Assembly: GCF_010731815.2 (NCBI RefSeq)
Contig: NZ_AP022593.1
Location: 3,286,001 to 3,350,000, forward strand
Direction of reading: 5' to 3'
Origin: Mycolicibacterium arabiense
Lineage (GTDB): Bacteria; Actinomycetota; Actinomycetes; Mycobacteriales; Mycobacteriaceae
DNA: 64,000 nt
Below the pieces are notes generated by a model, which was not told the DNA's origin, searched no databases, and was given only the letters and a program-made list of their open reading frames with translations. The position numbers were made by a program, and so were the translations under genes. The stretch's first letter is position 1, and the number at the start of each line of letters is the position of its first letter. Shown piece after piece: positions 21,134 to 29,140 of the stretch.

Positions 21134-21940
21134 TCAGCGGAGGGCGGCGCGGCCACGGATTCGGCCGAGGAGCACCAGCGCGAGCAGGGTCACCACCAGG
21201 AGCACGGTCGTGCACGCCGCGGCCTGGAAGGCCTGGCCGCGGTCGGTAAGCGCGAAGATGCTGACGGGCAACGTCTTCCACGTCGCGGGGTACACCATGA
21301 CCGTGGCACCCAACTCGCCCATCGACAACGCGACCGCCAACCCCGCTGCCGCACCGAGCGCGGGCAGCAGCAGCGGCAGGGTGATCCGGGTCAGCACACG
21401 CAACGGCCCTGCGCCAAGCGATTCCGCGGCCTGACGGTAGGCCGGATCGAGCCGGTCCAGCGCTGCCGACACCGCGCTGAACGCGAACGCGAGCACCAGC
21501 ACCGCGTGGGCCAGGATGACGATCCACCGCGTCCCACCCAGCAGCAGGGGCTGCTCGTTGAACGCGATCAGCAGGCCGAGTCCGATCGCCACCGACGGCA
21601 CCGCGATCGGCAGGTGGAACACCCCGTCGACCACCCGCGCCAGCCACGGCGGGCACTCCCGCGCAGCCAGTGCCGCCCACGTCCCGAGCACCAGGGCCAC
21701 ACCGCCCGCCAGGAACGCGGTCTGCAGGCTCACCGACAGACTGGCCAGGCTCTCGCCGGTCAGCGCGTCGTCGAAGTGCTCGAACCCGAGATCCGACGGG
21801 ACCGCACCGGTCCAGGACCCGGCCAGACCGGCGGCCACCACGGTCGCCAGCGGCGCGACGAACACCACCGCGACGACCAGTCCGAACAACCCGATCAGGA
21901 TCGCTCTACTTCGCCTGCTCCACAACAACATCCGCCTCAC
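21134..21940 (-). CDS. ABC transporter permease, 2-aminoethylphosphonate type (PhnV-like)
   Basis: A 268-residue inner-membrane permease with six hydrophobic segments. The EAA loop is YRQAAESLGAGPLRVLTRITLP. It belongs to the sulfate/thiamine/phosphonate branch and is the last gene of the transporter operon. GTG 21940 overlaps the end of the other permease gene by 35 bases, and ATG 21931 is also possible. Works with the permease, ATPase and binding protein encoded just upstream. Confidence 0.85.
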   Translation of the reverse strand: MRRMLLWSRRSRAILIGLFGLVVAVVFVAPLATVVAAGLAGSWTGAVPSDLGFEHFDDALTGESLASLSVSLQTAFLAGGVALVLGTWAALAARECPPWLARVVDGVFHLPIAVPSVAIGLGLLIAFNEQPLLLGGTRWIVILAHAVLVLAFAFSAVSAALDRLDPAYRQAAESLGAGPLRVLTRITLPLLLPALGAAAGLAVALSMGELGATVMVYPATWKTLPVSIFALTDRGQAFQAAACTTVLLVVTLLALVLLGRIRGRAALR

Positions 21941-22820
21941 CCCTGCCCTTCATCAGGCGCGCGAACACCACGCGGTACAGCGTGTACAAACCCAGCGACA
22001 GCGCGATCTGCACCGTCGCGATCACCGCGGCGCCGGGCAAGTCGAACGTGACGATGCCCCTGGTGTAGATCAGTACCGGCAGCGTGATCACGCCCTTGGC
22101 ACCGGTGAACAACACGATGCCGAACTCGTTGAGCGTCAACAACAGAACGAGGCTGCCACCCGCGACCAGCGCCGGCCAGGCCTCCGGCAGCACCACCGTG
22201 CGCAGCACCCGTAGCGGCGACGCGCCGAGACTGGCCGCCACGTCGAGCTGGGCCCGCGGCAGCACCGAGAACGACGCCAGCAGCGGCCTGACGACGAACG
22301 GCGTGAAGAACGTGATCTCGGCGGCGATGACGCCTGCGGGCGTGTAGAGGAAGTTCAGCAGCGGCGACGAACTGCCCGTGAGGCCGCCGATGGCCGCGTT
22401 CACCGCGCCGGCCGTGCCGTAGAGGAACGTGAACGCCAGCGTGATCAGGAATGACGGCAGGGCGAGCACCGTGTCGATCAGCCGACCGATGAGCCGCGAA
22501 CCCGGAAACGGCACGAACGCCAACACGATCGCGAGAAACGTGCCAAGGACGAGGCACCCGAGCGTCGACGCCACGGCGATCGCCACGGTCCGCCACAGTG
22601 CGTCCCGGAATGCCTCGGAACCAAGCACGTCGGTCCACGTCGAGAACCCACTCGCGCCCTCGGCGGACAGCGACTCCAGGCACACCCGAACCAGCGGATA
22701 GACCACGGCGATCAGGACGATGAGCAGTGGCGGAACCGCCCACCACGCCGCCCACGACCGGGGTGCGCCGGCCCGCGCGTCCCCGGGCGCGTGCTCGGGC
22801 GCCTCGAGAGTCGCGGTCAC
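21906..22820 (-). CDS. ABC transporter permease, 2-aminoethylphosphonate type (PhnU-like)
   Basis: A 304-residue inner-membrane permease with about six helices and the EAA loop LDVAASLGASPLRVLRTVVLPEAWP. GTG 22820 overlaps the ATPase stop codon (GTGA), so translation is coupled. The two different permeases with one ATPase form the two-permease layout of the PhnSTUV-type transporter and differ from PhnCDE. Confidence 0.85.
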   Translation of the reverse strand: MTATLEAPEHAPGDARAGAPRSWAAWWAVPPLLIVLIAVVYPLVRVCLESLSAEGASGFSTWTDVLGSEAFRDALWRTVAIAVASTLGCLVLGTFLAIVLAFVPFPGSRLIGRLIDTVLALPSFLITLAFTFLYGTAGAVNAAIGGLTGSSSPLLNFLYTPAGVIAAEITFFTPFVVRPLLASFSVLPRAQLDVAASLGASPLRVLRTVVLPEAWPALVAGGSLVLLLTLNEFGIVLFTGAKGVITLPVLIYTRGIVTFDLPGAAVIATVQIALSLGLYTLYRVVFARLMKGRGEADVVVEQAK

Positions 22821-23989
22821 GACGCGGCCGCCACCAGCACGCCGGCGGGCTCGGGGAAGCGGACGCCCACCTCGCTGCCGATCTCGTAGTGCGCGTTGCC
22901 CGGTACGTCGACGTCCAACAGCTGGTCGGGCATCGCGCCCACCGACAGCACCAGCCGGGTGCTGGCACCTCGCCAAACGACGGCATTCACGTTGGCGCGC
23001 AGCGCATCCCGGTCGCCGAGCGACAAGATGCGCAGAGCGTGCGGCCGAACGCACAACAGTGCCCTGGATCCCGGCGCCCAGTCCGTGCGGCCCACGGTCG
23101 GCTGCGGCGCCTCGGTGTTGACGGTCTTGTGCGCGAAGGTCACCAGCGCCGAGGTCCCGATGACGCGGCCCACCGTGCAGGGGATGAGGTTGGCACCGCC
23201 GAGGAAGGCCGCGGTGAAACTCGTCGGTGGTCGCCGCCACAGGTTCTCTGCGGTGTCGACGTCCATCAGGCGGGCGTCGTTCATGACCACGATGCGATCG
23301 GCGAGGGCGAGCGCCTCGGCCTGGTCGTGCGTCACGTACAGCATCGCAGTATCGGGCAGCGCCTCCTTGAGCCGCTGCAGTTCCGCCAGCATCGACTGCC
23401 GCAGTTGGGCATCCAGTGCTGCCAGCGGTTCGTCGAGCAGCAACACCCCTGGCCGGATCGCCAGCGCGCGGGCAATGGCCACGCGCTGCTGCTGCCCGCC
23501 TGATAGTTCCCGCGGCAGGCGGCGCCCGTAGTCGGACATGCCCACCATCTCCAGCGCCTCGGCTACCCGCCCCGCGACCTCGGCCCGCGGAACGCGTTGC
23601 GACTTCAGGCCGAACGCCACGTTGTCGGCCACGCGCATGTGCGGGAACAGCGCGTAGGACTGCAGCACCACGCCGATCCCCCGGCGGGCAGGCGGCAGGT
23701 CGGTGACGTCGCGGCCACCCAACCGGACCGTGCCCGACGTCGGCCGCACGAACCCGGCGAGCGCGTTGAGAGCGGTCGACTTGCCCGACCCGCTGGGGCC
23801 GAGCAGGGCGACCGTCTCACCGGCCGCGACGCGCAGGTTGAAGTCGACGAGCGCGTCGGTCGCCTTCTTGCCACGTCCGTACCGCACCCCGACCCTGTCG
23901 AAGGTGATTGCAGCACTGGCGGAGTCCTGCGCGGCGCGGGTTCCCGCCGCGCCGCGCGTCCCCGCGCGGCCGACGCCGATGTCGGTCAT
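22817..23989 (-). CDS. ABC transporter ATPase, 2-aminoethylphosphonate type (PhnT-like)
   Basis: A 390-residue ATPase. Motifs: GPSGSGKST (Walker A), VVLQSYALFPHM (Q-loop), LSGGQQQRVAIARAL (signature), LLLDEPLAALD (Walker B) and VTHDQAEAL (H-loop). A TOBE-like domain fills the C-terminal 120 residues. ATG 23989 lies one base after the stop of the binding-protein gene. An N-terminal stretch of about 20 Gly/Ala/Arg-rich residues precedes the ATPase fold. Its place between binding protein and permeases, together with the HAD and FAD enzymes upstream, ties it to aminophosphonate uptake more than to iron or thiamine uptake. Confidence 0.9.
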   Translation of the reverse strand: MTDIGVGRAGTRGAAGTRAAQDSASAAITFDRVGVRYGRGKKATDALVDFNLRVAAGETVALLGPSGSGKSTALNALAGFVRPTSGTVRLGGRDVTDLPPARRGIGVVLQSYALFPHMRVADNVAFGLKSQRVPRAEVAGRVAEALEMVGMSDYGRRLPRELSGGQQQRVAIARALAIRPGVLLLDEPLAALDAQLRQSMLAELQRLKEALPDTAMLYVTHDQAEALALADRIVVMNDARLMDVDTAENLWRRPPTSFTAAFLGGANLIPCTVGRVIGTSALVTFAHKTVNTEAPQPTVGRTDWAPGSRALLCVRPHALRILSLGDRDALRANVNAVVWRGASTRLVLSVGAMPDQLLDVDVPGNAHYEIGSEVGVRFPEPAGVLVAAAS

Positions 23990-23990
23990 G

Positions 23991-25046
23991 TCAGCTACCG
24001 GTGGCCTTCTGGTAGGCGGCCAAATCGGCATCGAGGTCGGCGAGCACGGTGTTCCAGTTCGGCACCCACACGTCGACGCCCTTGAGGACGCCCGCCGGGG
24101 TATTCGGCTCGGCCGACTGCTGCGCGGCGTCGACGAGTGAGGTCAGCACCGGGATGCCCAACGCCTCGGGTGCCACGGTCTTCTGCACGTCCTCGGAGAT
24201 CAGGAACGCGAGTAGCTTCTTGGCCGAGTCGGCGTGCGGCGCGCCCTTGGTTACACCCGCGACGTACGGCAGCGAGACGGTCGTCTTCTTGCCATCGGCG
24301 GTGGCGGGGATGAAGACCTCGAACTTCGAGCCGTCGTCCTTGATCGAGCCCAGGTTCATCTGCACGTCACCGTTCGCGACGAGCAGTTCGCCGTTGCTGA
24401 CCTTCGGCTGCAGCTTGCCGGTGGACGACGACGGCCCGACGTTGTTGGCCTGCAACCGGGTCAGGTAGTCCAGCGCACCGGGCTTGCCCATCAGGTGCTG
24501 CAGCAGGATCAGCACCGCGGTGCCGTCACCGGCTTGACCGGGCGTGGAGTACTGCAGCTTGCCCTTGAACTCGGGCGCGAGCAGGTCGTCCCACGTGCGG
24601 GGCTTCGGGTTGGCGCCCGGGTTCGCGATGAAGCTCAGCGCGTTGTTGACGATCGGCACGTAGCTGGCCTCGGGTCCCACCTGGTCGCTCGGAATGCCTG
24701 CCGCGTCGACTCCGCTGGGCTGCAACAATTCCGACTCGGCTGCCCGCTGGATGAACGGGGGCAGCGTGACGAGCAGGTCGGCCTGGGGGTTGGACTGCTC
24801 CTTCTCCACGCGCGACACCACCTCGCCCGAGCCGGCCTCGACGAGGTTGACGTTGATGCCGGTGTCCTCGGTGAACTTCTCGAACTGCCCCTCGTACCAG
24901 GTGGCGAGCCCGTCGGCGCTGTAGACGGTCAGCGTCTCGCCGCCGCCTGAGCCGGACGAGCCGGTGCCGCCACACGCGGTCAGCGCGACGGCGACCAGGG
25001 TCGCCGACATCGCGGCGATGCCGGTGCGCAGTAGTGGTCTCTTCAT
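23991..25046 (-). CDS. ABC transporter substrate-binding lipoprotein, aminophosphonate type (PhnS-like)
   Basis: A 351-residue lipoprotein. The signal peptide ends in the lipobox VALTACGG with lipidated Cys25, followed by a Gly/Ser linker. The mature part is of the Fe3+/thiamine/phosphonate binding class (LTVYSADGLATWYEGQFEKF at the start, ANGDVQMNLGSI and GVTKGAPHADSAKKLLAFL later). It should deliver the ligand to the PhnTUV-like transporter at the outer face of the inner membrane. Two bases separate its ATG from the HAD hydrolase stop. The ligand is inferred from neighbours: 2-aminoethylphosphonate or a derivative. Confidence 0.88.
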   Translation of the reverse strand: MKRPLLRTGIAAMSATLVAVALTACGGTGSSGSGGGETLTVYSADGLATWYEGQFEKFTEDTGINVNLVEAGSGEVVSRVEKEQSNPQADLLVTLPPFIQRAAESELLQPSGVDAAGIPSDQVGPEASYVPIVNNALSFIANPGANPKPRTWDDLLAPEFKGKLQYSTPGQAGDGTAVLILLQHLMGKPGALDYLTRLQANNVGPSSSTGKLQPKVSNGELLVANGDVQMNLGSIKDDGSKFEVFIPATADGKKTTVSLPYVAGVTKGAPHADSAKKLLAFLISEDVQKTVAPEALGIPVLTSLVDAAQQSAEPNTPAGVLKGVDVWVPNWNTVLADLDADLAAYQKATGS

Positions 25047-25048
25047 GG

Positions 25049-25750
25049 TCAGCCCTTCACGGTGCGGTTGGAGGTGAGGATGAGATCGGCGAACTCGCCG
25101 ACGTTGGTGACGACGTGAGTCGCACCGGCCGAGCGCAAGTGCTCCTCGTCGTGGGCGCCGGTGAGTGTGCCTGCGGCGACGGCACATCCGGCCCGCAGTG
25201 CGCTGTCCACGTCGCTGGTGGTGTCGCCGAGCGCGGCGACGTCGGCTACCGCGTCGACGCCGAGCCGCATCAGCGCGGTCAGGATGAGGTCGGGATAGGG
25301 CCTGCCCCGCACGCCGTCACCGGGTGCGAGCGCGAGGTCGGCGATGGTCTGCCAGCCGAGGGCGGCGAGCAGCTTCTCCTGCGTCGCGCCACTGAATCCG
25401 GTCGTCAGCGCGACCTGAACACCACCGTCGCGGAGCCGCGTGATGGCCTCGGCCGCACCGTCGATCGGGCGCGCGTGGCCGTCGTCGATCGCCGCGGCGT
25501 AGGCGCTCTCGAACGCGGTGTTGGCCTGCTGCGCACGGTCCTCGTCACCGAGCAGTGCCCGGAAGACGGTGATCTTCGACTGCCCCATGGTGTCGAGCAC
25601 GTACTGCCGGGCCTGCTCGCGCTCGGTACCGTGCTCGGGTAGTCCCACTGCCGTGGCGGCCGCCTCGAACGACCGCACGACCAGGCCGTCGTCGGCGACC
25701 GTCGTGCCCGCCATGTCGAGAACGGCCAGTCGAATCAGGTTGTCGGACAT
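25049..25750 (-). CDS. phosphonatase-like HAD hydrolase (PhnX-like)
   Basis: A 233-residue HAD-superfamily enzyme of the PhnX-like clade. The N-terminal motif is LDMAGTTV with nucleophile Asp12, the DxAGT form found only in phosphonatases and close relatives. The cap domain has MGQSK with Lys59 where phosphonatase forms its Schiff base with phosphonoacetaldehyde. ALGDTTSDVDSALRAG is the C-terminal acidic motif. It should break a carbon-phosphorus bond in a 2-oxoethylphosphonate. This clade is known for never standing beside the transaminase PhnW but beside FAD oxidoreductases, exactly as here: the FAD enzyme lies ten bases upstream. Cytoplasmic. Confidence 0.9.
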   Translation of the reverse strand: MSDNLIRLAVLDMAGTTVADDGLVVRSFEAAATAVGLPEHGTEREQARQYVLDTMGQSKITVFRALLGDEDRAQQANTAFESAYAAAIDDGHARPIDGAAEAITRLRDGGVQVALTTGFSGATQEKLLAALGWQTIADLALAPGDGVRGRPYPDLILTALMRLGVDAVADVAALGDTTSDVDSALRAGCAVAAGTLTGAHDEEHLRSAGATHVVTNVGEFADLILTSNRTVKG

Positions 25751-25760
25751 CGTGTCTCCT

Positions 25761-26876
25761 CTACAGTTCCAGCAGGTCGGCGGTCGTCTCGGCGATGGCC
25801 GGGCCGAGTGTCATGCCCCTGCCTCCGGGCCCGGTGATCACCCATACGCCGTCGTCGGCGCGGTGCCTGCACGCCAGCAGGCCGGGGTCGACGCACTGGC
25901 TGTAGACGCCTGCCCAGCGCCGCCGGATCGGCGGCAGCGGGCGCCCGAGGAACTGCTCGACGAGGTCGGTGAGGTAGGCATACGGCGCTTCGTCGACGTC
26001 GAACGCGAACGGCTCGTCGTATTCGTGCGTGTCACCGATGGTGAGCCCGCCGTGCAAGCGCTGCACGCAGAGCAGCTGCATCCGGTGGGCGGCGGCGACG
26101 GGGTCCTGCGGTTCGTCGTGGCGCAGCGCGTCGAGCGCCGTACCCGCGAAACCCGGGTAGTACCTGAAGCTGTCGCCGTCGGCGATCGCGGTGGTGAGCG
26201 GTTCGTCGAGCGGATCGGTCTGCATCATCTGCAGGCGCACCCGGCGCACCGGCAGGTCACCGGCGACGTCGCGGGTGAGGCCGCCGTGCGCGGCGCCGGG
26301 GCACAGGAGCACCACGTCGGCCTCGTGTCTGCCGCCGCGGTCGTCGCGCACCACGCGGCCGGTCACGTCCCTGGCCTCGGTGCCGGGCAACCACCGATAC
26401 CTGCCGGTGCCGGCCAGGTGGTCGCGGATCGCGGGCATGGCCTGGCGGGACTCGACCGCGGCGTCGAGCGAACAGTGCAGTGCAGCAACGAACTTGCCGC
26501 GTAGCGCCGGGTTGAGTGCGCGCGCCCGGTCGGGTTCGACCACCGTGAAACCGCGGGCTTCGGCGTCCGGTCGGGCCGCCACCTCCTCGGCGACGGCGAC
26601 TTCGCGCGGTGTGCGCAGCAGCGTCAGTGATCCGGCGGGCCGAAAGCCCACGCCAGGAATGTCGGCGCCGATCCGCTCCCACAGTTCCCGGGAACGCAGG
26701 GACGCGTCGAGTTCGGTCGAGGACCGCCCGGAGACCCAGACGAGGCCGAAGTTGCGGACGGTTGCGCCGCGGGCCTCGGTCTCGCGGTCGAGATGGGTGA
26801 CCTCGTGGCCGCGCCGTACGGCCTCCAAGGCATGGGCGGTCCCGAGGATCCCGCCGCCGATGATGGTCACACGCAT
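25761..26876 (-). CDS. FAD-dependent amine oxidoreductase, phosphonate-associated
   Basis: A 371-residue flavoenzyme of the DAO (glycine/D-amino-acid oxidase) fold. The dinucleotide motif is IIGGGILGTAHALEA with HLDRE at the end of the second strand, and the C-terminal VITGPGGRGMTLGPAIAE closes the FAD site. Members next to PhnX-like hydrolases are thought to deaminate an aminophosphonate to the aldehyde that the hydrolase cleaves, replacing PhnW. First gene of the minus-strand operon, 109 bases from the divergent HD oxygenase gene with the operator between them. The substrate may be 2-aminoethylphosphonate, its N-methyl or its 1-hydroxy form; the sequence cannot decide. Confidence 0.88.
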   Translation of the reverse strand: MRVTIIGGGILGTAHALEAVRRGHEVTHLDRETEARGATVRNFGLVWVSGRSSTELDASLRSRELWERIGADIPGVGFRPAGSLTLLRTPREVAVAEEVAARPDAEARGFTVVEPDRARALNPALRGKFVAALHCSLDAAVESRQAMPAIRDHLAGTGRYRWLPGTEARDVTGRVVRDDRGGRHEADVVLLCPGAAHGGLTRDVAGDLPVRRVRLQMMQTDPLDEPLTTAIADGDSFRYYPGFAGTALDALRHDEPQDPVAAAHRMQLLCVQRLHGGLTIGDTHEYDEPFAFDVDEAPYAYLTDLVEQFLGRPLPPIRRRWAGVYSQCVDPGLLACRHRADDGVWVITGPGGRGMTLGPAIAETTADLLEL

Positions 26877-26950
26877 GAGAAGGAACCTTTCTGGTCGATC
26901 ACGTCGCCGAACGGAAGGTGCGGTGGTGGCGGCGCGAACAGCAGGTTAAC

Positions 26951-26968
26951 AATTGGTATAGACCAATT
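26951..26968. promoter_or_regulatory. GntR (PhnF-type) operator
   Basis: AATTGGT-ATAG-ACCAATT, perfect 7-base arms around ATAG. It contains TGGTATAGACCA (26954-26965), which I recall as the operator of the M. smegmatis GntR regulator PhnF. The site lies in the divergent promoter region and covers the -35 area of the HD oxygenase gene. The GntR protein encoded at 27510 is the likely ligand-controlled repressor for both directions. Confidence 0.8.
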
Positions 26969-26973
26969 CGGGT

Positions 26974-26979
26974 TACACT
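26974..26979 (+). promoter_or_regulatory. -10 element, leaderless start of the HD oxygenase gene
   Basis: TACACT fits TANNNT and ends six bases before ATG 26986. No ribosome binding site is present, so transcription probably starts at the A of the ATG. Confidence 0.55.
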
Positions 26980-26985
26980 TGGGCC

Positions 26986-27501
26986 ATGCGTCCGCTGGAG
27001 GAGACCGAGGCCGTACTGCGCTCACTGCGCGGAGTCTGGGACGAGGAAGCCGTCGACGAACTCGACCACGCACTGCAGGCCGCGGCGTGCGCCATGGCCG
27101 ATGGCGCCGACGACGAACTGGTCCTCGCCGCCGCGCTGCACGACGTCGCACACAGCCCACTGCTGGGCGCCTCGTCCGCACACGACGAAGAGGCCCGCCG
27201 GTGGCTCCGCCCCCGATTCGGTGACCGGGTCGCGTGGCTAGCCGGCGCACACGTCGCCGCCAAGCAGTACCTGGTCGCCACCGAACCCGGCTACGCCGCA
27301 GGCCTTTCCGAGACGTCGGTGCGCTCGCTCGCGGCGCAGGGCGGCGCCCACGTCGATGAGGGCTTCACCGGCCACGAGTGGTGGCCGGACGCCGTGCGTC
27401 TCCGTCGCTACGACGACGCCGCGAAGGATCCCGAGGCGCCGGGCGCGACGATCGCCGAGGTTCTGGACGTAGCGGAACGCGTCCTGGCCGGCAGGGCGTA
27501 G
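26986..27501 (+). CDS. PhnZ/TmpB-like HD-domain oxygenase
   Basis: A 171-residue HD-domain protein of the phosphonate-degradation HDIG group, whose studied members PhnZ and TmpB use a mixed-valent di-iron centre and O2 to cleave 1-hydroxy-2-aminoalkylphosphonates to an amino acid and phosphate. Candidate metal ligands: His28 (LDHALQ), His52-Asp53 (LHDVAH), His66 (SAHDEEA), His89 (AGAHVAAKQYL) and an Asp in LRRYDDAAK. Glu21 is kept, but Trp18 stands where PhnZ has its gating Tyr24 (numbering from memory). PhnZ works after a 2-oxoglutarate hydroxylase PhnY, and none is encoded in the cluster. First gene of a two-gene operon with the GntR regulator. Confidence 0.85.
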   Translation: MRPLEETEAVLRSLRGVWDEEAVDELDHALQAAACAMADGADDELVLAAALHDVAHSPLLGASSAHDEEARRWLRPRFGDRVAWLAGAHVAAKQYLVATEPGYAAGLSETSVRSLAAQGGAHVDEGFTGHEWWPDAVRLRRYDDAAKDPEAPGATIAEVLDVAERVLAGRA

Positions 27502-27509
27502 GAGTACCC

Positions 27510-28205
27510 GTGAGCAAGCCCTACCTTATCCGCACCTCGCTGGAGGAACTGCTCGGCGACCTGGTCGAGGGCGATCCGTTCCCTCCGGAGCGTGAACTGG
27601 CGGCACGGTTCGGGGTCGCCCGCGAAACCGTGCGCCAGGCGCTGCACGAGCTGCTCGTCGAGGGCCGCATAGAACGTCGCGGCCGCGGCACGGTGGTGGC
27701 GAAGTCGAAGCTGACGCAACCACTTTCGTTGCGGTCGTACACCGAGGGTGCGCTACGCATGGGCCGCAAGCCCGGTCGCATCCTGGTCAGCTGGGACGAC
27801 GTCGCCGCGCCCGCCGATCTCGCGGCAGCGCTCAGTGTCGCCGACGGCGCACCCGTCATGCGGCTGGAGCGCATCCTGCTCGCCGACGGCCAGCGCATCG
27901 GCCTGGAGAACACCCATCTGCCCCTGCACCGCTTCGGTGGGTTCAGGGAGACGTTCGATCCGACGACGTCGCTCTACGCTGCGATCCGGGCGACCGGCGT
28001 CGAGTTCGGTTCCGCCACCGAACGCATCGAGACCGTGCTGGCGTCACCGCGCGAGGCAGGGCTGCTGGAGTCCACGACCGCGATGCCCATGCTCCGGCTG
28101 CACCGTCGCTCGCTCGACACCGACGGCACTCCGATCGAGGTCGTGCACGCGCTGTACCGGGGCGATCGCGTGGCGTTCGAGGCGACTCTCACCGATGGCG
28201 ACTGA
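27510..28205 (+). CDS. GntR family regulator (HutC/PhnF-like, UTRA domain)
   Basis: A 231-residue repressor. Residues 1-70 are the GntR winged helix (PPERELAARFGVARETVRQALHELLVEGRIERRGRGTVV). The rest is a UTRA ligand domain (SLRSYTEGALRMGRKP, LRLHRRSLDTDGTPIEVVHALYRGDR). GTG 27510 has AGGAG overlapping the stop of the HD oxygenase gene eight bases upstream, so the two are cotranscribed. The palindrome at 26951-26968 fits this family's operators. I infer that it represses both arms of the divergent locus until an aminophosphonate or related ligand binds. Confidence 0.9.
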   Translation: MSKPYLIRTSLEELLGDLVEGDPFPPERELAARFGVARETVRQALHELLVEGRIERRGRGTVVAKSKLTQPLSLRSYTEGALRMGRKPGRILVSWDDVAAPADLAAALSVADGAPVMRLERILLADGQRIGLENTHLPLHRFGGFRETFDPTTSLYAAIRATGVEFGSATERIETVLASPREAGLLESTTAMPMLRLHRRSLDTDGTPIEVVHALYRGDRVAFEATLTDGD

Positions 28206-28234: not shown

Positions 28235-29140
28235 GTGCCCGCCTTCCATCCCGAACTGGAGCGCGCTGCCCGGTTCATGCCCCGAACCCTCATCACGCCA
28301 CGCTCTCTGCGATACCTCCGCATGGCCATGCCTCTGCTGGACCGTCGCGTACCCGGTGACGTCGAGAAGCTGACACTTTCCTCGGGCATCGGCGTCCGGC
28401 TGCATCGCCCACCTGGTGTGACGACGCCCGGCCCGGCGCTGCTGTGGATCCACGGTGGCGGTTACGTGATCGGCAGCGCCGCCCAGGATGACGTCACCTG
28501 CCGCCGGTTCGCGCGCGAGCTGGGCATCACCGTCGCAGCCGTCGACTATCGACTGGCACCCGAATTCCCCTATCCCGCACCGCTCGACGACTGCTACGAG
28601 GCGCTCGCGTGGCTCGCGGGCCTGCCCGCGGTCGACTCGACCCAGGTCGCCATCGGCGGTGCGAGCGCAGGCGGGGGTCTCGCGGCGGCGCTGGCACTGC
28701 TGGTGCGCGATCGCGGCGAGATCGACCTCGCGGCGCAGGTCCTCGTCTACCCCATGCTCGACGATCGGTCGTCGACCCAGGAGGGCCTCGACAGCCCCAA
28801 TCACCGGATGTGGACCCAGACGTCGAACGCCTACGGCTGGTCGGCCTACCTCGGCGGCGCAGACCCGAACGTCGCCGTGCCCGCCCGCCGCGACGACCTC
28901 GCGGGCCTACCGCCTGCCTGGGTCGGCGTCGGCACGTGCGACCTCTTCCACGACGAGGACCTGGTCTACGCCGAGCGCCTCCGCGCGGCAGGCGTCCCGT
29001 GCGACGTCGAGGTCGTCGAGGGCGCCTTCCACGGCTTCGACGGCGTGGCACCCAAGGCCGAGGTCACCAGACACTTCGTCGAGGGCCAGGTCGAATTCCT
29101 ACGACGGACGTTCAGGCAGACGCAACCGGCCTCTGCCTGA
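28235..29140 (+). CDS. alpha/beta hydrolase, HSL-type esterase
   Basis: A 301-residue carboxylesterase. It has the HSL marker HGGGYVIG, GGASAGGGLAA with the nucleophile Ser, GTCDLFHDED with the Asp and GAFHGFDGV with the His. No signal peptide, so cytoplasmic. GTG 28235 follows GTAGGG and lies 30 bases after the GntR gene, so it may be read from the same transcript, though nothing ties it to phosphonates. Its 3' end overlaps the aldo/keto reductase gene on the other strand by 29 bases. Confidence 0.9.
   Translation: MPAFHPELERAARFMPRTLITPRSLRYLRMAMPLLDRRVPGDVEKLTLSSGIGVRLHRPPGVTTPGPALLWIHGGGYVIGSAAQDDVTCRRFARELGITVAAVDYRLAPEFPYPAPLDDCYEALAWLAGLPAVDSTQVAIGGASAGGGLAAALALLVRDRGEIDLAAQVLVYPMLDDRSSTQEGLDSPNHRMWTQTSNAYGWSAYLGGADPNVAVPARRDDLAGLPPAWVGVGTCDLFHDEDLVYAERLRAAGVPCDVEVVEGAFHGFDGVAPKAEVTRHFVEGQVEFLRRTFRQTQPASA

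Follow-up and report, generated by a model that had tools for sequence, protein, structure and literature searches.

How does a genome break the carbon–phosphorus (C–P) bond of aminophosphonates when one of its loci joins candidate enzymes of two breakdown chemistries while both the transaminase PhnW and the hydroxylase PhnY are missing? The locus that raises this question lies at positions 21134–28205 of a 64,000-nucleotide stretch of Mycolicibacterium arabiense DNA (contig NZ_AP022593.1, positions 3,286,001 to 3,350,000; hereafter the window), in a genome of 6.45 Mb on two contigs. A first-pass annotation, made from the letters alone, had described eight genes there as one divergent locus; all eight open reading frames are indeed found in that place, and family scores support the identities given to them (Table 1). 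On the minus strand, in transcription order and tightly packed, are the genes for a FAD-dependent oxidoreductase, a PhnX-like hydrolase, a binding protein of the 2-aminoethylphosphonate (AEP) type, an ATPase and two permeases. The FAD enzyme, the PhnX-like hydrolase and the AEP-type ABC importer (PhnSTUV) form one operon, divergent from a plus-strand unit made of an HD protein and a HutC-type GntR/UTRA regulator, the likely start of the regulator overlapping the end of the HD gene. The FAD and HD starts are 109 bp apart.

We think it probable that the locus takes up natural aminophosphonates and that two distinct enzyme routes then release their phosphate. More specifically we favour, with a probability of roughly 0.6, modular scavenging, in which the FAD enzyme and the PhnX-like hydrolase, as a route already known and sufficient in itself, would serve AEP and/or N-methyl-AEP, and the HD protein would serve ready-made (R)-1-hydroxy-2-aminoethylphosphonate (R-HAEP), under one importer and one regulator. 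We infer that the GntR protein would bind a single operator and repress both divergent promoters as long as no phosphonate ligand is present, and that AEP and related compounds would enter through the PhnSTUV-type importer. The FAD enzyme would oxidatively deaminate AEP and/or N-methyl-AEP to phosphonoacetaldehyde, in the stead of PhnW, and the PhnX-like enzyme would split this aldehyde into acetaldehyde and phosphate by means of a Lys Schiff base and an Asp. The HD protein, in an ancillary role, may cleave R-HAEP or a close 1-hydroxy relative oxidatively to glycine and phosphate; since R-HAEP would be taken ready-made, no PhnY hydroxylase would be needed.

Genome-wide searches found no PhnW, PhnY-type, TmpA or PhnJ protein (PhnA, PalA and PbfA were not searched), which extends to the whole genome the lack of PhnW and PhnY that the first-pass annotation had reported for the locus. 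The best PhnW match scored 26.8 bits against a cut-off of 400.8, and TmpA gave no match, with two positive-control genomes at 420 and 413 bits. For PhnY-type proteins the best score was 26 bits, the control genomes reaching 276 and 246, themselves under the model cut-off of 500. Two PhyH genes, 0.4 and 2.4 Mb from the locus, were considered for the role of PhnY and rejected, one scoring 26 bits with the PhnY-type model and the other not being listed. A C–P lyase elsewhere was rejected as well, because PhnJ had no match in the genome, although the same search was positive for E. coli and for two of the seven further genomes that it covered. Near the HD gene, four hydroxylase queries (E 1e-3) matched none of 50 related loci, all found by search with the HD protein, in flanks of up to 9 kb, some of them shorter.

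The FAD protein passes the curated cut-off of TIGR03364, the HpnW/PbfD family, and the PhnX-like protein that of TIGR03351. Phosphonatase motifs are a nucleophile Asp in DxAGT and a Schiff-base Lys in the cap, and these two residues, here D12 and K59, are the same in every one of 42 PhnX-like rows. The rows of L020 and L031 contain an X, standing for a stop, inside the matched stretch. Published work shows FAD enzymes of the PbfC and PbfD types converting N-methyl-AEP, and in one case AEP, to phosphonoacetaldehyde, with N-methyl-AEP the best substrate of the PbfD enzymes tested; a PbfD oxidase can replace PhnW, and such genes occur with phnX alone (PMC10590968).

Whether the HD protein belongs to the same route can be judged from the company it keeps. 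Our partner survey sampled 394 genomes of the class. TIGR03276, the model of PhnZ/TmpB HD oxygenases, found matches in 61 of them at E <= 0.001; 28 of the listed places scored at least 80 bits (a cut of our own choosing), and the surroundings of 19 HD places were fetched. A TmpA-like or PhnY-like hydroxylase stood beside HD in 13 of these regions and FAD plus PhnX-like genes in three (L102/L135, L109, L110); neither was near HD in the other three (L111, L112, L113), so the division into two types is not a strict one. Most HD proteins of the class nevertheless have either a hydroxylase or FAD/PhnX-like partners, a pattern that is new as far as searched. Seen from the hydrolase, 61 PhnX-like places over cut-off have a TIGR03364 gene within 10 kb in 58 cases and an HD gene within 10 kb in seven, one of the seven (G066) having a PhnY-type gene and HD nearby and no TIGR03364. 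The seven genes without HD were present in six of 20 fetched regions (L119, L120, L121, L122, L124, L132), L123 holding a more distant set; since other actinobacteria keep the seven genes without it, HD is an add-on. In L119 and L122 the GntR gene is divergent from the FAD gene and the exact operator core is present. In the FAD gene tree these two group with HD-bearing Gordonia, Williamsia and a record labelled Kitasatospora (support 0.915), inside a larger HD-bearing set (support 0.978, the nodes between being weaker, down to 0.114), and this placement suggests HD loss. The other four branch outside the HD-bearing set. One genome (G383) carries two PhnX-like/FAD pairs of different subtype (L118, C6; L083, C33), one of them with HD, which hints at a division of substrates.

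Among the 50 related loci, 31 have all eight genes in the same order and orientation at >=50% identity, and gene order is conserved far beyond chance. The FAD gene is divergent within 600 bp of HD in 43 loci, and GntR is downstream of HD in 45. Among named relatives of the HD protein, those of a metagenome bin of Mycobacterium sp. (L010) and of Mycolicibacterium lacusdiani (L011) are the closest, at 96% and 95%. Six of the remaining 19 loci are short by our criterion. In four (L019, L020, L031, L043) FAD, PhnX-like, HD and GntR are kept and the sole transporter match is a 35–39% identical ATPase, so the importer seems replaced; L032 has no transporter match and L037 has PhnT only. PhnX-like is absent from L025 and L049, and L050 has HD and PhnX-like without FAD. 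HD stands without detectable FAD or PhnX-like in L036, L028 (6.8 kb upstream, partial PhnT match) and L056 (an HD fragment). In the distant proteobacterial loci L057 (Elstera) and L059 (Parachitinimonas), HD is accompanied by a true PhnX and a TIGR03364 protein. The HD protein and operators of the record labelled Kitasatospora arboriphila are nearly identical to those of Williamsia muralis (L029, L038), and the record may be mislabelled or contaminated. The first-pass annotation had suggested such a comparison, and had proposed a route for a 1-hydroxy- or N-substituted AEP whose two arms might serve related substrates. The idea of two arms for related substrates is supported; two modules are more probable than one joined route, because of the HD-less seven-gene loci and the few loci with HD but without FAD or without PhnX-like.

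The HD protein has the H...HD...H...H...D diiron ligand set, with H28, H52, D53, H66, H89 and D143 invariant in a 37-row alignment, retains the Lys as well, and matches the PhnZ/TmpB fold far above hydrolases. The gene is not listed by the PF01966 HD search; its own Pfam match has an E-value of 0.0017 and a score below the cut-off. The substrate-gating loop of PhnZ/TmpB is YxxE (PMC8177086); here this loop is absent and WxxE is found instead, with W18 in 48 of 51 aligned HD rows (47 when positions are counted strictly by distance to the first ligand His), the two Tyr rows being proteobacterial and one row a fragment. All 13 hydroxylase-paired HD proteins have Tyr, ten as YxxE (TmpA-paired) and three as YxE (PhnY-paired; L060, L061, L064), the loop Tyr in these three being one residue nearer the Glu. 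Trp as a simple marker of FAD pairing was rejected: FAD-paired HD proteins outside the clade keep Tyr in four of five cases (L057, L059, L066/L102/L135, L075/L109; L076/L110 has neither), so that Trp marks the clade and not FAD pairing as such. This actinobacterial HD clade, with Trp replacing the lid Tyr, is new as far as searched, and no description of the actinobacterial version of the locus or of the Trp loop was found in the open-licence papers searched. Three divergent HD proteins from large genomes of one genus (L079, L081, L085) have neither a hydroxylase nor a FAD gene found nearby; two of them share an RGAWD start and carry extra residues ahead of the first ligand His. It is conceivable, if doubtful, that the Trp-lid proteins are a separate, hydroxylase-free class of oxidative C–P cleaving enzymes, acting on the aldehyde or imine that the FAD enzyme beside them produces, or on some 1-hydroxy-aminophosphonate yet to be named; their iron site would then be guarded otherwise than by the tyrosine of PhnZ/TmpB.

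The enzymes could also work in series, the FAD enzyme oxidising 1-hydroxy-AEP, or its N-methyl form, to a 1-hydroxy aldehyde that PhnX-like and/or HD would cleave. The TIGR03364 description quoted in PMC10590968 proposes 1-hydroxy-2-aminoethylphosphonate as substrate, PMC11203657 proposes that HpnW may feed PhnHD, and the divergent adjacency of HD and FAD noted above points the same way. We nevertheless find a serial route rather unlikely, given the preference of the tested PbfD enzymes for N-methyl-AEP, the common HD-less FAD plus PhnX-like operons, and the loci in which HD stands without detectable FAD (L036, L028) or with PhnX-like and no FAD (L050), remnants elsewhere in those genomes not having been looked for. 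Less probable again is that HD is a detoxifier, removing toxic HAEP that enters accidentally through the AEP importer, with phosphate as a by-product. Racemic HAEP inhibits the growth of E. coli and AEP-importing cells may not exclude it (PMC8154272), and the operator lies between HD and the importer operon; the biochemistry, however, is identical to that of modular scavenging, and the present data do not separate the two. That HD might be an HD-superfamily phosphohydrolase acting on a pathway side product, as the loss of the YxxE tyrosine and the source annotations ('HD family phosphohydrolase') could be taken to mean, is very improbable considering the retained oxygenase ligands and Lys and the far better fold match to PhnZ/TmpB.

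Modular scavenging itself has several observations weighing against it. HD adjoins FAD in 43 of 50 loci, tighter than two independent arms require, and the four HD-less loci outside the HD-bearing set have a co-directional GntR and lack the exact operator core, and are therefore not the same regulatory unit. The PhnX-like protein scores 71 bits with the true-PhnX model TIGR01422, under its cut-off of 220; three residues after the Lys (K+3) it has Val where both true PhnX proteins (L057, L059) have His by manual motif reading, so that its aldehyde may differ from phosphonoacetaldehyde. The HD protein scores 124.2 bits with TIGR03276, under the cut-off of 214.6, and this score together with the lost lid Tyr means that it may act on another substrate or even by another chemistry. 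Nor is the Glu that binds the amine in PhnZ, here E21, fully conserved (E in 43 of 51 rows). The tight neighbourhood, the low score and the altered loop leave room for a different HD substrate, and the HD arm presupposes that mycobacteria have access to free R-HAEP.

The regulator locus has both traits of a HutC-type GntR regulon, a UTRA domain and an operator; with the PhnF model TIGR02325 the GntR protein is under cut-off. The putative operator TTGGTATAGACCAA, in the divergent promoter region, fits the HutC consensus NyGTMTAKACNy (PMC4494728). In 46 of 50 loci the 260 bp upstream of HD contain its core TGGTNTANACCA with <=1 mismatch, as against 100 of 5000 random windows; the core is missing there in L036, L056, L057 and L059. 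An exact match to the core is present a single time in the 6.45 Mb genome, the reversed control having none, and a conserved operator occurring once in the genome is new as far as searched. TAnnnT and a start codon follow 45 of 52 operator sites, a spacing compatible, as far as sequence can suggest, with a leaderless transcript; a consensus promoter scan of 26700–27050 gave no sigma-70-type site. Two operators 47 bp apart are present in L029, L038, L041, L044, L048, L055 and L058 (the second in L048 with one mismatch), loci of Gordonia, Williamsia, Antrihabitans, Pseudonocardia and the Kitasatospora-labelled record. Just upstream of the operator (26944–26950) is the motif G[GA]TNAA[CG], seen at 41 of 52 operator sites and in 56 of 5000 background 16-mers. 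It resembles an actinobacterial PHO-box half site in reverse complement, so phosphate control may overlap the operator.

That the joining of the two chemistries, pointed out in the first-pass annotation, is unprecedented was not supported, unlike the identities, the one shared AEP-type importer, the missing partners and the two arms. Achromobacter clusters carry hpnW in phnW's place with phnX, lysR and phnHD, the functions being left open and no PhnY* being named in them (PMC11203657). They share with the present locus a clustered TIGR03364 FAD enzyme replacing PhnW, a C–P hydrolase and a TIGR03276 HD protein; they have a true PhnX, a LysR activator and phnW elsewhere on the chromosome, whereas here we find a PhnX-like TIGR03351 protein, a GntR in one unit with HD, a WxxE HD and no phnW. 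A phnZ gene was counted in 15 of 1,186 phnWX and 24 of 75 phnWAY clusters and, within that tally, never with pbfA (PMC8154272, Table 1); these too add a PhnZ-type gene to a hydrolytic AEP cluster, but keep the transaminase that the FAD enzyme replaces here. The combination of FAD/PhnX with HD therefore recurs across phyla and is not new. In PbfD–PhnX degradation of AEP, likewise, a PbfD-type FAD oxidase stands beside phosphonoacetaldehyde hydrolase, in some clusters without PhnW (PMC10590968), and our locus differs in having PhnX-like rather than PhnX and an HD oxygenase candidate. With the PhnY*/PhnZ and TmpA/TmpB routes it shares the PhnZ fold and ligand set of HD, and differs by the hydroxylase partner, found in neither locus nor genome, and by Trp for the YxxE Tyr. 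In PhnF-phnDCE of M. smegmatis, too, an ABC operon for phosphorus uptake lies divergent from the gene of a GntR-family regulator, although PhnDCE is of another transporter family and carries phosphate (PMC7866108).

Table 1. Features of the locus, in window positions, with the scores on which their names rest
Feature	Position	Strand	Evidence
PhnV-like ABC permease	21134..21940	-	TIGR03255 4e-63, 214 bits, below cut-off 358.7; same place kept in related loci
PhnU-like ABC permease	21906..22823	-	NF011624 411 bits (cut-off 247) and TIGR03226 297.5 (cut-off 283.45), both over
PhnT-like ABC ATPase	22817..23989	-	TIGR03258 345 bits, below cut-off 499; TOBE_2 domain; frame opens at 24031, ATG at 23989 the presumed start
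2-aminoethylphosphonate-type substrate-binding protein (PhnS-like)	23991..25046	-	NF011620 447.7 bits (cut-off 310); TIGR03227 PhnS 326, below cut-off 395
PhnX-like HAD hydrolase (phosphonatase-like)	25049..25750	-	TIGR03351 236.9 bits, cut-off 218.9; D12 and K59 kept
FAD-dependent amine oxidoreductase, TIGR03364/HpnW (PbfD-like)	25761..26876	-	TIGR03364 338.6 bits, cut-off 285.1; DAO fold PF01266 6e-44
Palindromic operator TTGGTATAGACCAA, putative HutC-type GntR site	26953..26966	.	Conservation of core TGGTNTANACCA upstream of HD
PhnZ-fold HD diiron oxygenase candidate	26986..27501	+	WxxE (W18/E21) replacing YxxE
GntR/HutC-UTRA regulator, PhnF-like	27498..28205	+	UTRA PF07702 7e-33; TIGR02325 121.5 bits, below cut-off 156.8; start at 27498 our choice

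The importer subunits are thus over curated cut-offs with NF011620, NF011624 and TIGR03226, and under them with TIGR03227 (PhnS) and the PhnT and PhnV models. Downstream of the regulator, at 28235–29140, is a LipP1-like esterase gene, below its model cut-off, which has the same place in many Mycolicibacterium loci, whereas those of Gordonia and Williamsia gave no match; most likely it merely adjoins the locus without belonging to it.

The role of hydroxylase-less PhnZ relatives beside phosphonatase genes has been called a conundrum (PMC11203657), and this locus offers a clean actinobacterial test case for it, with the partners searched for and not found, an HD gene present in some loci and absent from others while the rest of the set stays largely constant, one residue changed in the gating loop and a single operator. 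If modular scavenging is true, AEP and R-HAEP, which amoebae and other organisms make, would be phosphate sources for environmental mycobacteria.

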